From: a virus
Reading direction: 5' to 3' (one strand)
Length of the DNA stretch: 64,000 bases
IMG/VR virus record: IMGVR_UViG_3300036944_001167
Span: 1-64,000 of that record
The position numbers and the translations under genes are program-made. The notes under the pieces were generated by a model that ran no database searches, was not told the DNA's origin, and saw only the letters and a program-made list of their open reading frames with translations. Each line of letters opens with the position of its first letter. Within the stretch, counting starts at the first letter, position 1. Positions 2,678 to 18,386 of this stretch are shown here, piece by piece.

Positions 2678-4942
2678 TCAGATGCTAGGTGGCGTCTGAG
2701 GCCTTTCAGGTTTGTACACGAAACGAATGCCCGCACACTCCAGAACGTGGGTGACGAACAGGATGTTGCGACCCTGTCCGAGCGGAAACTTGTCCCGGTC
2801 AATAACCTTGGGGATGTTGGTTGGTTGTGGTGCACGCAGGATGTTAGCCGTGATCTCCTTGTGTACCGTTGGGTTGTTAGACTGATCCACCAGATCGGCT
2901 GCTACGTAGCCACCGGCTGTACTGGCAAGTAGACGGACTTCACCTTCCCCGGTCAGTCGGATGGGTGAGGCACGACCTGGGTAGGCGTACTTATCCATCT
3001 TGGTGATCTTTGCTGGAATGCCGTGGTGCTGCAACTTGGCAGAAGCAACGCCTGACCACTCACTACCGGTTTTCTCCAGCTCGATCACGTAAACGCTACC
3101 GATCATGATCGGGGCATCCGTCACGACCCGCTTACCGTTTTGGGCAATGAAGCTCACAGGACCATAGCAAGGTGGGTACTTCGCTTGGACTTGCTGGACC
3201 GTCTCGACATAATCGATCGGGTTGTGTGTTGGCATCCACAGGTAGATACCATCACGCATCACCGACAACAGGTGCTCCTCGATGGGTTGTTTGTACTCCC
3301 CACGAGCAAACATCTGAGCCATCCACGGCGACACGATGTCGTAGTAACCAAAAAGGTATTGCCACGCCTGTGCCACAATGGCCGGGTCCAACTGAATGTC
3401 TTGTCCCGGTACGATGTTGCTTTCTCGACTGCCGAACAGCGCGTTCTGTAGGTTGAAGGTGGGTTTGGGTTTCGGTGGGACGTCATCACCCCAAGGACTG
3501 AAGCCAAACATTTGACGAATCTTCTTAGTGACGTCGCGCGATGCAGCATTGAAGTACTGCTCGTACAAACGACCCAAGTTCATCCGTTTGATGTTGGAGT
3601 CGGCATCCATGATGTAGTCAGCTGAATTGCCTTCTGCATCCACCGGCATGTTAGCCCGTGGCCAGATCCCACAGATAACCGCCTTATCGCCATGGGTCCC
3701 GGTGATCTTGTTGCCGATCGTAGGTACCATGTCGTATTGGTAGGTCACCTCAATCCGCCATTCGTCCAGCTCGTTACGACGGTAGGTTTTATTGACATCC
3801 ATACTGCCTTGACGACTATCGCGATGACGTTCGTTCAGGTAGGTACGGGCTTCAACCAACAACCGGTTAAACTCATACCCAAGGGTTGGACGACCTTCCG
3901 GACGACGACAGACTTTCTCATACTCCTGCCAGATACGACGGTAGTAGTTAGTGGCGGCTGTGTGGTACTTGCGCAGCTGCCGATCCATACCTGCCGGGGT
4001 ATTGCAATTACGCAGCAGGTGATTGTGCTGAACCATGATATCAATCACAGTAGCGCCAGGGGTTGCATAGACCAGTCGGTCGTAGATGTAGTCAGGTTCC
4101 CGCAAAGCGGTCGGCGACATCTCGATCGGAGCCAGCAGCGGATCGTATTTGCGCAGAGCAAACAGAAGACCGTCATCACGGATCTTTTCACCAATGTCCG
4201 GTACAGGCTTGTATTCATCCGGACGTTCAGGATTACCGTAGAGATTGATCATGTAGTAGTGCTGACCACAGCTCTCTACCCGCTTCTCAAACCCTTGGGC
4301 TGTGAGTTTCGGAAGAACATCATCGGCAAAGATCGCACCGTCCTCAATCACGCCTTCGACGGACATCAGACACATGTTCAACTCAAGGCCGTATTTGTAG
4401 TCTCCTTCTGGTGTGACGCTTGGAGAATCAGCCACTTTGGTACCCGCTCGGATGCGGGCTTCGGCAGTCATCTGACGGACGACGTTCTGGTCCTTCTGAT
4501 ATTCGAATCCGAAGTGCTGGTGGTTACAGTTATACATCGGAAGGATCATTACATCGACGTGACCGGTTTTCGCATCTTCGTAGATGTACGCCGTTTCGGG
4601 GGAGAAAGCAATGCTGTCGATACCGGCAGTTTGGTCGTAGCGATGCACTACGGCCAAAATCACCACATTGTTCTCAAAGCGCTTGGAGAACGTGTACTTA
4701 GCAAACTCTCGTTCGGTACCGGTTTGTTGACGGCGCAGGGTGCTGCCTTTAATCACAAGGCTCGAACCCAATGCCGAGTTTGCCATCTGGACCCGCGGGG
4801 AACTGTCGCCGCGCAGGTGGGAGTTCAGGTTACTGACACCAACCAGTTCGGGGAACAGTTGGCATTCGGCTTCCATCGGGTCAACCTCATTGTAGTGAGG
4901 TACCTGAGTGTGCTTGAAGACCTCTTTGACTTCATCCGACAC
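2678..4942 (-). CDS. RNA polymerase beta subunit, C-terminal part
   Basis: This is a 754-residue protein. Residues about 410-430 (GNKITGTHGDKAV) match the beta motif that ends in GNKGV in bacteria, and residues 453-462 (RMNLGRLYEQ) match the bacterial PSRMN(I/L)GQ segment. Both are catalytic-centre signatures of multisubunit RNAP. The N-terminal half of beta is absent, as in phiKZ where beta is encoded in two genes. The start is GTG (4940-4942), set by the Shine-Dalgarno in a hairpin loop at 4946-4959. An early-type promoter at 5011-5018 suggests it belongs to the non-virion RNAP made after infection (phiKZ gp55 type). Confidence 0.88.
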   Translation of the reverse strand: MSDEVKEVFKHTQVPHYNEVDPMEAECQLFPELVGVSNLNSHLRGDSSPRVQMANSALGSSLVIKGSTLRRQQTGTEREFAKYTFSKRFENNVVILAVVHRYDQTAGIDSIAFSPETAYIYEDAKTGHVDVMILPMYNCNHQHFGFEYQKDQNVVRQMTAEARIRAGTKVADSPSVTPEGDYKYGLELNMCLMSVEGVIEDGAIFADDVLPKLTAQGFEKRVESCGQHYYMINLYGNPERPDEYKPVPDIGEKIRDDGLLFALRKYDPLLAPIEMSPTALREPDYIYDRLVYATPGATVIDIMVQHNHLLRNCNTPAGMDRQLRKYHTAATNYYRRIWQEYEKVCRRPEGRPTLGYEFNRLLVEARTYLNERHRDSRQGSMDVNKTYRRNELDEWRIEVTYQYDMVPTIGNKITGTHGDKAVICGIWPRANMPVDAEGNSADYIMDADSNIKRMNLGRLYEQYFNAASRDVTKKIRQMFGFSPWGDDVPPKPKPTFNLQNALFGSRESNIVPGQDIQLDPAIVAQAWQYLFGYYDIVSPWMAQMFARGEYKQPIEEHLLSVMRDGIYLWMPTHNPIDYVETVQQVQAKYPPCYGPVSFIAQNGKRVVTDAPIMIGSVYVIELEKTGSEWSGVASAKLQHHGIPAKITKMDKYAYPGRASPIRLTGEGEVRLLASTAGGYVAADLVDQSNNPTVHKEITANILRAPQPTNIPKVIDRDKFPLGQGRNILFVTHVLECAGIRFVYKPERPQTPPSI

Positions 4943-4945
4943 GAT

Positions 4946-4959
4946 AGACTCCTTAGTCT
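4946..4959 (-). promoter_or_regulatory. Shine-Dalgarno hairpin of the RNAP beta gene
   Basis: AGACT-AAGG-AGTCT: a 5-bp stem with the ribosome-binding AAGG in the tetraloop and AG in the 3' arm, three bases before the GTG start. One of a recurrent family in this window. Confidence 0.6.
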
Positions 4960-4992
4960 TCTACGAGTTTAAGGGGCAGTGGTGATCACTCA

Positions 4993-5018
4993 CCAAGGGT
5001 ATTCACCTTAATAATATA
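4993..5018 (-). promoter_or_regulatory. Early-type (virion RNAP) promoter
   Basis: On the minus strand TATATTAT (5018-5011) is followed after six bases by GAATA. TATATTAC is the phiKZ early promoter motif. It reads into the RNAP beta gene. Confidence 0.65.
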
Positions 5019-5053
5019 GGTTTGTTTTTTCTTTACTGCGGACGGACACAGAC

Positions 5054-5398
5054 ATGACCATGCCTATCCAAGAGTTGATGACCAACACGGTGGCTCAAGT
5101 TTATTGCGACCAAGCGTTTCGCGATACGGTCGAGTCAGTCTTGAACATCATCAAAGTCAATCCTAACAATCGCACCATCGGTATCGAGCCCGGCATCGCC
5201 TACAAATATGAGTTTGACTTCTACGGGTTGTTGTCACACCTCAAAATTCCTACGAGCATGCACTGGTTAACCCTGCGGGTAAACGGTTATCGAGACCCAC
5301 GGGACTACGTACACACCCATGTCGAACTGGTCATCCCAAGCGAAGACGACCTGACGTATGTGCGTCGGATGTACAAGACACGAAAGGGCATACTTTGA
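5054..5398 (+). CDS. Hypothetical protein, 114 aa
   Basis: A lone plus-strand gene divergent from the RNAP beta gene and convergent with the next one. It has a GGACG-like site upstream, a second in-frame ATG at codon 3, and a strong bidirectional terminator right after the stop. I recognise no family. The product looks like a small soluble alpha/beta protein with no membrane segment or cysteine cluster. Confidence 0.7.
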   Translation: MTMPIQELMTNTVAQVYCDQAFRDTVESVLNIIKVNPNNRTIGIEPGIAYKYEFDFYGLLSHLKIPTSMHWLTLRVNGYRDPRDYVHTHVELVIPSEDDLTYVRRMYKTRKGIL

Positions 5399-15565: not shown

Positions 15566-15739
15566 TTAGCGACCCCGGTGGATGTAGTTCGAGATCGTAG
15601 TCACCACAGGCGCAGGGATTGCGATGTGGCTAGAGATACTGCGGGGTTTGCGGGTGTCGTAAACACCGTTGCGGGGTGCCAGTTCATCCAGAGCCTCCAA
15701 CATCTGGTGGTCCAGAATAATGATGCCATTGAGAGCATC
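15566..15739 (-). CDS. RNA polymerase beta-prime subunit, N-terminal part, exon 2
   Basis: After splicing, exon 1 (ending FDG) joins this exon (beginning DALNG), restoring NADFDGDALN, the catalytic metal-binding loop of all multisubunit RNAPs. The exon encodes 57 residues that continue beta-prime-like sequence (Pro- and Ile-rich, ending in HRGR) before a TAG stop. The spliced protein is 476 residues. The third catalytic Asp is the first codon of this exon, so the RNAP cannot be active without splicing. It corresponds to the second part of phiKZ gp71-73, whose gene is also intron-split. Confidence 0.9.
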   Translation of the reverse strand, partial: DALNGIIILDHQMLEALDELAPRNGVYDTRKPRSISSHIAIPAPVVTTISNYIHRGR

Positions 15740-15767
15740 CTTTGATGTTTCTGCTATGTGAACCAAC

Positions 15768-16757
15768 TTACACAACTGGACTTGTTGTAAACTGATTTAA
15801 TCTACCTAAAGCCCATGGGGTGTTATAAACGAATGCCCACGGACCTACTTGTCGAATGACATCCTTCTTAAGGGTTGTCGTTACAGCTTTCTTACTCAGA
15901 CCTTGAGTGGTGTGGAACAGACTGGCGCTCTTAAACACCGAGACTTCGCCCGTCACCACATTCTTGGCCAACACTTCTTTAGGACCTCTACCCAAAGCTC
16001 GATCCAAAGACTCTTGGTCGATTTCGGGCAAACCTTCTTCCTTATACGCACAGACATAACGTTTGTTAACCAAACGCAAGACATCGCCTCTGGACATACA
16101 TTGGAAGATGTGGCTGGGAAGTGCATCGATAGCACGCCCTAAAAGACCCATCGAAGGGTATTCCTGAACTTCGTTGGTCTGGATATCTAAACACAACACT
16201 GGTCGTGAAGGCTGTTGACCCAGACTATCCCTTTCACGGATACGAGCTTTGTGAAGCTGTTCGGGGATTCTATCCTTTGTTCCATGGTGGGTGAGTACCC
16301 ACCCATCGATAGGGATTCCTTCCTTAATGTGCTTCCAAATCACCTCAGGTTGATACCCGAAGTGCTCTCCCGCATGGAACAGGTCTCGGAGGAACATACA
16401 CACACCGTCCTTATCAGCCAAAATCCGCGGACGTGATTCTGACTTAAAGAGTGCAGCGTGTATATTGTTAACCTTAACCGTTGCCCATTCGAGGTTTTCT
16501 ACGTCGTTATTGGTACAGTCTCCATCGATGTGGTTCACTGTTAACTGACTAACGTCCCTATCCCACGGTAAGTGTGCCAAGGCCACCATCCGATGAACGC
16601 CGAACGTTGGCATACTGCCATCCAACATTCTAACGTTAACCGTGATGTAGCCGTCAAGGTTGACGTAGTAATTCTTCTCAACGCCTTCGGAGTCAAAGAT
16701 CCTACCGCACCGAGAAGCCATATACCCGTCAGTGCCCGGTATGATCTTCAAATCCAT
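15768..16757 (-). CDS. HNH homing endonuclease encoded in the intron
   Basis: This 329-residue protein starts at ATG after AAGGATACG and lies wholly inside the intron. Residues about 8-25 (GYMASRCGRIFDS) are a NUMOD4 motif. About residues 55-90 hold the HNH nuclease core: HRMVALAHL, then NHIDGDCTNNDVENLEW. Two NUMOD1-like DNA-binding repeats follow (LDIQTNEVQEYPS and KNVVTGEVSVFKS). Such enzymes cut intronless alleles so that repair copies the intron in. The expected target is the joined exon sequence at the NADFDGD codons. It is not needed for splicing. Confidence 0.9.
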   Translation of the reverse strand: MDLKIIPGTDGYMASRCGRIFDSEGVEKNYYVNLDGYITVNVRMLDGSMPTFGVHRMVALAHLPWDRDVSQLTVNHIDGDCTNNDVENLEWATVKVNNIHAALFKSESRPRILADKDGVCMFLRDLFHAGEHFGYQPEVIWKHIKEGIPIDGWVLTHHGTKDRIPEQLHKARIRERDSLGQQPSRPVLCLDIQTNEVQEYPSMGLLGRAIDALPSHIFQCMSRGDVLRLVNKRYVCAYKEEGLPEIDQESLDRALGRGPKEVLAKNVVTGEVSVFKSASLFHTTQGLSKKAVTTTLKKDVIRQVGPWAFVYNTPWALGRLNQFTTSPVV

Positions 16758-16860
16758 AACGTATCCTTTTCTTTATTTACACATAGCAGAAACGCACGAG
16801 TCGTTAATTCGTGGTTACCTGTGGTCCAGACAGATAACTTCCTCACTTTCATGAGGCGGT

Positions 16861-17121
16861 AGACTATATCTTCTTCCAGTTTCCCAGAAGCTCCCTGTTT
16901 CGAATGTCACTTGACACCCTACTCTACTCGGTTCGTCTCTCGACGCCTTTCGATAGTCGTTGAACCTTGTCCGTAACTTGTCTCCCGACAATTTGTAGGA
17001 CCTTGGCTGCTGATTGTCCAATCTCGATTCTTTTCAAACCATGACGTTTATCGTTTCCGATTCCGCTTTGGTGAACCAAGCTCTAAGGAGTTTCCAGCAA
17101 TTTAAGGAGTTTAATGACGGC
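16861..17121 (-). ncRNA. Group IA intron ribozyme core
   Basis: Reading the minus strand in order: guide GCCGTC (17121-17116), a P4/P5-type TTGCTGGAAACTCC (from 17100), GGACAATCAGCAGCCAAGG (17019-17001, the P6/P3-region signature of phage introns), AAGGTTCAACGACTATCG (16968-16951, P7 5' strand), and AAGATATAGTCT (16872-16861, P7 3' strand). ACGACTAT and ATAGTC pair to form P7, the guanosine-binding site. This matches T4 td-type introns. Confidence 0.9.
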
Positions 17122-17129
17122 AATACTCT

Positions 17130-18386
17130 ACCGTCAAAATCAGCATTCATACCCCCTAGTACTAGGACTGATAAGCTCACTGTATTGACGTTGATGTCTT
17201 CACTCTTGATGCGGGTGACGTACAGGCGTTGCGCCGACAAACGGGTCAACGTAGGGTTACGTTGGAAGATTACCGGGATGCCCTTACGAGGCGATTCGGC
17301 GATCATTTCCTTGAAGATCTCATCGATCAGAGGATGGTACCGCAAGGTGTGTTCGAACAACAGCTTGTTGATTTGCTTGGGCGAATACCCACGATGGAGC
17401 AGTTTGGCCGTCAGGTGAGTTTTGAACACCATGATGGACAGGGACCACGGGAGTTCCAGTTCCTCATGATGGTGTTGGTCTGAACGCGAGGTGATTACAG
17501 CCCGGAAGCTGAAATGGTCACGAGAACCAAACACGTGTTTACGCCACCAACCTGTTTTACTACCCAACTGCGCACCGATGAACGGGGCATAGTACTCAGA
17601 TAGCATCACGATGGCCGTGACGGTACGTTTCTCGATTTCCTCTTGGCTCAGTTTGGTTTGACTGTGCACAATGCCGCTGATGGTGTAAATCGCATCAATG
17701 GCAGGGCGCATGGTCAGGTCACCGTACAGGCCTGTAGCTGCCTTCTCGATGATGAACGCCGCTTTCGACGGGATGGGCACCTTATGGCTGAAGATCAGAT
17801 CGCGGTACAAAGCAATGAAAGTGCGTAGGTATTCCACCTTACGCTTCTTCTTATTGTCGTACAGCGGCCCTTCCTCCGAGCACATCAGTTGCATGATACT
17901 GTCGAAGTTGTGGTAGAAAGAATTCAACCCCCGCTTATACCCTTGTGCCGAAAGGCTTTGGGTGAAGAACTCCATCTTCTTATTCGGTGGGCGATATCCC
18001 GGATTGATCAACCAGTCCAGTAGACTGACGCTCTTGATCGTCATCTCGGACTTCAAGATCACGTAGACCCAGGGGTTGATCAGACGTTCTACCCCTTGAG
18101 GGGCAGCAATCCACAACAACGCCTCCAGCGGCCGTTCCGTAGAAGGCAGGCAGAAGTGGTTACAGATTGGACAACGTACGCCAACGTTGTACTGATACTT
18201 CAGGTAGCCGCAATCGCATGAAGGTACGATATCAAGCGACTCACCAGTGTACTTGGTGATTGCGAGGTTGTGGAGAGCGTCTCGGTCCTCTTTGCTGTCG
18301 ATTTGATAATCGTTAATGATGAGCGGTACGCTGGTCAGTGAATCAAATAGCTGATCGTGGTTCACGATCTCTGCACAGACACCCAT
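17130..18386 (-). CDS. RNA polymerase beta-prime subunit, N-terminal part, exon 1
   Basis: This exon encodes 419 residues from ATG 18386. Residues about 55-78 hold a Zn-ribbon-like Cys cluster (CDCGYLKYQ...CPICNHFC) matching the beta-prime N-terminus. Residues 414-419 are NADFDG, the catalytic loop cut by the intron. Translated without splicing, the frame would run on for 31 intron residues to 17034 and lack the third catalytic Asp. The closest known arrangement is phiKZ gp71-73 of the non-virion RNAP. A terminator separates it from the chimallin candidate upstream. Confidence 0.9.

Follow-up and report, generated by a model that had tools for sequence, protein, structure and literature searches.

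In all likelihood, the DNA analysed here (64,000 nucleotides of a metagenomic contig, hereafter the window) carries a mobile group I intron, probably of the T4-like subgroup IA, inserted in the active-site codons of the gene for the N-terminal half of the beta' subunit of the non-virion RNA polymerase (nvRNAP) of a chimallivirus. The intron encodes an HNH endonuclease of the I-HmuI type and is predicted to splice and to home; splicing, endonuclease activity, homing and its direction are all read from the sequence. The intron and the elements of its predicted fold are the following:

15740..17129 (minus strand): group I intron, 1390 nt, with 5' sequence AGAGUAUUGCCGUC... and a 3' terminal G, delimited by the Rfam match and by comparison with an empty site
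16840..17139 (minus strand): match to the RF00028 core from P1 to P9, 79.8 bits, E=1.2e-18, model positions 1-253
17130..17135 (minus strand): exon strand of P1, GACGGU, forming six of six pairs with the internal guide, with U-G at the splice site
17116..17121 (minus strand): internal guide sequence GCCGUC, the P1 pairing partner of GACGGU
17122..17129 (minus strand): P1 loop AGAGUAUU, which is the intron strand of P10, forming 8 bp with GAUGCUCU of exon 2 (15732-15739)
16954..16960 (minus strand): region of the P7 5' strand, ACGACUA, with the 3' strand UAUAGUC near 16861-16867, from the Rfam alignment

The intron starts with AGAGUAUU and is inserted between GACGGT and GATGCT, splitting NADFDG/D (here and below, the slash marks the insertion point) of the nvRNAP gene. 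The covariance-model search against Rfam group I introns that the earlier note had proposed yielded a score well above the gathering threshold of 50, with the full model covered. RF00028 is the sole RNA family above threshold within the window, and this match is the only one to RF00028 in the 84,477-base record. The P1 helix proposed in that note, with U-G at the splice site, and the terminal G of the intron both hold, all six pairs being present and the last base being G; the proposed P10 pairing is present too, but comprises eight pairs rather than six. Across 16 introns at the same site, the P10 run averages 4.5 pairs, compared with 3.26 when exon 2 sequences were reassigned randomly among the introns, and none of 5000 such shuffles was as high. 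In L017, exon GATGGT and guide GCCATC represent a compensatory P1 change seen in the sequence. The Rfam alignment places a 28-nt insert, in which short hairpins can form, between P7 5' and P3 3', which fits the likely membership of the intron in subgroup IA. The letters of P7 and the extra segment between P7 5' and P3 3' presumably resemble those of the T4 td-type introns.

The interrupted gene lies directly downstream of the gene for the nuclear shell protein:

17130..18386 (minus strand): exon 1, nvRNAP beta' N-terminal half, 419 codons, ending ...MNADFDG; PHROG 2987, E=5.3e-135
15566..15739 (minus strand): exon 2, starting DALNGIIILDHQ, 57 codons and a stop, in the joined frame; contiguous with exon 1 in the intron-less contig L072
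18462..20609 (minus strand): chimallin (nuclear shell protein), upstream of the RNAP gene; PF25677, E=5.7e-59; PHROG 4795, E=2.1e-107

Removal of the 1390 nt yields a single frame of 476 aa containing NADFDGDALN, and the junction reads ...GGMNADFDGDALNGIIILDHQ.... Residues 1-474 of the joined product match PDB 7ogp_A (phiKZ gp55+gp56.1; E=2.6e-86); thus, homology to the nvRNAP beta' N-terminal half extends over the full length of the product, and the gene is located beside chimallin. In a tblastn search, the joined product matched 292 phage records, all at less than 60% identity, and a megablast search of 12 kb of the window against phage records gave no match. Because the next gene upstream encodes chimallin, the phage is, by gene content, a chimallivirus. 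The earlier note placed a T4-type group I intron and its HNH endonuclease exactly in the NADFDGD codons; this core reading, with the ends given there, passed every test made, among them the Rfam match, the joined frame and the empty site in L072.

The endonuclease gene is contained within the intron:

15768..16757 (minus strand): HNH endonuclease P0001, 329 aa, after P9 and near the 3' end of the intron; Pfam HNH_3, E=1.6e-6; PHROG 59, E=1.8e-24
16464..16601 (minus strand): HNH motif region, residues 53-98, from the HNH_3 match and alignments

Residues N75, H76, N88, W91, N97 and H100 of P0001 are invariant in both alignments made. P0001 matched I-HmuI (1u3e_M) both by sequence (phmmer, E=1.8e-6) and by structure (Foldseek, E=3.2e-7); the AlphaFold model compared was weak (pTM 0.32, pLDDT below 50 in the HNH part) and was used only for agreement with the sequence match. 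A scan with P0001 as a single protein detected only four distant, partial relatives. We infer that P0001 is a homing endonuclease of the I-HmuI type. The one clear relative of P0001 among solved structures, I-HmuI of Bacillus phage SPO1, is also an HNH homing endonuclease belonging to a phage group I intron, but is shorter (174 aa vs 329 aa), and the sequence alignment spans residues 2-97 only. The SPO1 intron sits in the DNA polymerase gene.

An almost identical phage with the site empty is represented by L072, a 221 kb contig. It is 98.7% identical to the window over 4.8 kb on one side and 98.9% over 3.5 kb on the other, and the intron is missing precisely where the junction had been predicted, so that both of the base-exact ends claimed earlier are confirmed. 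No P0001 homologue was detected in the whole L072 record, where the sole group I intron is in the thymidylate synthase gene, together with an I-TevI-like GIY-YIG protein. Around the junction, 35 of 132 bases differ (26.5%) vs 72 of 8126 elsewhere (0.9%; binomial P=7e-41). The diverged tract is asymmetric:

17130..17244 (minus strand): upstream part of the putative co-conversion tract, about 115 nt in exon 1, with scattered extra differences to about 17382 (-252)
15728..15739 (minus strand): downstream part of the putative co-conversion tract, 12 bp in exon 2, with the next L072 difference about 150 bp further on

The changes in the tract are mostly synonymous, and of the 33 bases closest to the junction, 10 differ between L072 and the window. 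At about 4740-4757, L072 reads NADYDGD where the window has NADFDGD, an uncommon Phe to Tyr change in the catalytic motif. If placed between the flanks of L072, the window intron would meet G at position -1, turning the U-G at the splice site into G-G, and P10 would drop from 8 to 6 broken-up pairs; thus, the flanks in the window fit the intron, whereas those in L072 do not. GC3 is 0.53 in the window tract, 0.67 in the L072 tract and 0.66 in the gene, and other stretches of the gene range from 0.49 to 0.81, so that base composition leans towards intron gain in the window lineage while staying inside the normal range of the gene. A search for the donor of the diverged tract found none. The tract is best read as the mark of a homing event that took place after the split of the two phages, in which a diverged donor supplied the intron with asymmetric co-conversion of the flanks; gain in the window lineage is the likelier direction. 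Such homing would require that the enzyme tolerate changes at about 10 out of 33 target bases.

Under the proposed mechanism, GACGGU of the exon would pair with the guide GCCGUC in the transcript, and an exogenous G would attack after the U of the U-G pair; exon joining would be aided by the 8-bp P10 and would restore NADFDGD. P0001 would nick or cut the uninterrupted gene of a co-infecting phage, an activity with which the pair of the window and L072 is consistent, and repair would copy the intron, along with a short stretch of the donor exons, into that gene.

Other histories could be proposed for the same observations. L072 might be the derived state: the common ancestor would have had the intron, and an exchange with a diverged phage lacking it would have removed the intron from L072 and left the tract. 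By itself, a recombination tract gives no direction, the RNAP beta' gene is commonly found with the site occupied as well as empty, and a long association would likewise produce exon flanks that match the intron. However, GC3 of the L072 tract is like that of the rest of the gene, whereas it is the window tract that departs from it, and the endonuclease provides a mechanism for gain, with none evident for loss; we regard loss in L072 as unlikely. Slightly less unlikely, but still doubtful, is that the intron has become fixed and has lost its mobility, its endonuclease being retained as a weapon that interferes with co-infecting relatives, as has been proposed for PhiPA3 gp210. The P0001 ORF is intact and its HNH residues are conserved. 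For PhiPA3 and phiKZ, it has been found that the endonuclease harms the rival, and it has been argued that the genome with the intron is restricted as a repair template by compartments and by divergence (PMC11620839). The near-twin with an empty site and the diverged tract, on the other hand, indicate recent transfer or loss by recombination, and the roles in interference and in homing are not mutually exclusive.

It is highly improbable that the insertion does not splice, or is an assembly artefact, and simply breaks the RNAP gene. Such an error is conceivable in a metagenomic contig, but the window shows a complete group I fold, in which P1 and P10 match, and a frame that is intact across the junction; the same arrangement is present in isolated phages, and in phiKZ the orthologous subunit is known as a joined chain.

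Introns occupy the identical boundary, GAYGGT/GAY, in about 20 other phages or contigs, so that the insertion site is not a rare one. The isolates are Erwinia phage pEa_SNUABM_54, Vibrio phage 5/USC-1, Klebsiella phage Miami, Serratia phages Totoro and 2050HW, Pseudomonas phage HHBS8_1, Aeromonas phage PS1 and Bacillus phage PBS1, to which about a dozen IMG/VR contigs can be added; most of the intron cores at this site are supported by Rfam. In pEa_SNUABM_54, 5/USC-1, Miami, Totoro, HHBS8_1 and PS1, the boundary is GACGGT/GAY and a homologous HNH ORF (33-39% identity) lies at the same place in the intron as in the window. These six introns are mostly unannotated in GenBank, and no functional work on them was found in the literature searched. 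Among Moabitevirus members, the site is empty in Moabite (a contiguous tblastn match) but holds a 296-nt intron in 2050HW and a 1410-nt intron with an HNH ORF in Totoro. Similarly, AVP1 is empty at NADFDG/D where its genus-mate PS1 is occupied. Most matches to the NADFDG pattern that lacked a guide were set aside as empty RNAP genes or chance occurrences.

Outside the chimalliviruses of Gram-negative hosts, PBS1 (L064, 4900-5830) contains an HNH-bearing, intron-like insertion at GDYDG/DVLN. Rfam reported no core there at E up to 0.05, and thus the PBS1 case rests on P1, the terminal G and the reading frame.

Across 11 loci, the identities of the endonucleases correlate with those of the exons (Mantel r=0.52, a value reached in none of 5000 permutations), which indicates that the element mostly spread between relatives. 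Judging from these identities, long-term association with related phages dominates its spread, with repeated gain and loss. Frequent long-range jumping of the element was also considered and was rejected in view of the same correlation, the endonuclease and the host gene being broadly co-inherited.

The NADFDGD motif is broken by introns at no fewer than six boundaries:

A/PNADFDG: LucasX
N/ADFDGD: phiKZ, HUST_1, KpGz_1 and L083
NA/D: phiRU
NAD/F: AVP1, the first intron of PS1, L073 and L122
NADFD/G: XC31 and L110
NADFDG/D: the window and the phages and contigs that share its boundary
NADFDGD/Q: PA7 and PS119XW

In several genes, group I introns follow one another inside the motif (L010, 2685-4325; L073, 4736-6119; L082, 4790-5500; also L033, L038 and L090). 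Such tandem introns delimit micro-exons of about 9-21 nt, namely TTCGACGGT in PS1, TTTGACGGT in L073, TACGACGGT in L082, and about 20-21 nt in L033 and L038. In L090, which perhaps has three introns, three cores lie side by side, the last of them weak. In a scan made without selection for introns, with an exon alignment of four sequences (the 11-sequence set was too divergent), the motif is interrupted in 9 of about 50 complete genes, and in a further gene, that of L114, the interruption lies elsewhere, ahead of RNPNLT. The RNA core of the window intron is 73-78% identical to the cores in PS1, at the same site, and in PS119XW and PA7, at the next codon; neighbouring sites thus share related ribozymes.

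The same gene has a second intron site just before or within the RNP motif (R/NPT region), occupied in L114 (about 4640-5090), L035 and L052. In Goslar (L003, 4757-6560), the annotated Intron_gpI is accompanied by an apparent second core after the endonuclease ORF.

We consider it likely that the seven catalytic codons of the chimallivirus nvRNAP beta' gene are a multi-site intron hot spot, with at least six boundaries and two or perhaps three introns in a row, and that the window and L072 record homing across lineages, with short asymmetric co-conversion that would have delivered splicing-compatible flanks. If so, homing between diverged nucleus-forming phages occurs in nature, even though donor-directed repair is considered limited in the PhiPA3 and phiKZ model.

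The joined chain of phiKZ is already known, and the Goslar intron in the same gene is already annotated as Intron_gpI in GenBank. No paper describing the introns at the beta' site or the hot spot was found in the literature searched. The comparison with L072 provides a base-exact, nearly isogenic pair with and without the intron in a nucleus-forming phage, and so lets one ask whether the endonuclease homes or is only an anti-rival weapon, the question raised by the work on PhiPA3 gp210. More generally, the introns show heavy targeting of one universally conserved motif, and many GenBank entries give this essential RNAP gene as a truncated ORF and separate 'hypothetical proteins'.

Among known systems, the introns of phage T4 td, nrdB and sunY (group IA) are like the window intron in the style of the core sequence, but are located in other host genes and carry other endonucleases.

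The closest counterpart is phiKZ gp55-gp56-gp56.1, the same gene as in the window, likewise adjoining chimallin. In phiKZ (L071, 5924-8762), gp55 is exon 1, gp56 the intron ORF and gp56.1 exon 2, given as three separate CDS in GenBank; the group I intron scores 75.6 bits, and PDB 7ogp contains the joined PHIKZ055+PHIKZ056.1 chain with DFDGD at 417-421. The phiKZ intron lies earlier in the motif (N/ADFDGD) and its ORF is upstream of the core, whereas the window intron is at NADFDG/D with the ORF after P9. The jumbo-phage precedents cited in the earlier note, phiKZ gp71-73 and PhiPA3 gp210, are indeed in RNAP genes, but these encode beta subunits (gp71-73 being the C-terminal half of beta, and the PhiPA3 gene being gp211/209) and not the beta' subunit interrupted here.

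The PhiPA3 gp210 intron interrupts the virion RNAP beta subunit gene (Birkholz et al. 2024, PMC11620839), a gene different from that in the window, and gp210 is absent among the best matches of P0001 listed. It is, however, also a chimallivirus group I intron with an HNH endonuclease, beside the catalytic Asp codons of an RNAP subunit gene, and gp210 nicks the intron-less site in vitro (PMC11620839). phiKZ escaped gp210 through missense changes of the conserved Asp (PMC11620839). The view that the catalytic site is nearly escape-proof does not hold in light of these changes, of the 10 of 33 junction bases and the NADYDGD motif by which L072 differs, and of the synonymous changes that abound among intron-less genes. 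In the argument of Birkholz et al., the donor seldom serves for repair because of divergence and compartments (PMC11620839); in contrast, the tract that separates the window from L072 suggests that transfer between diverged relatives does happen.
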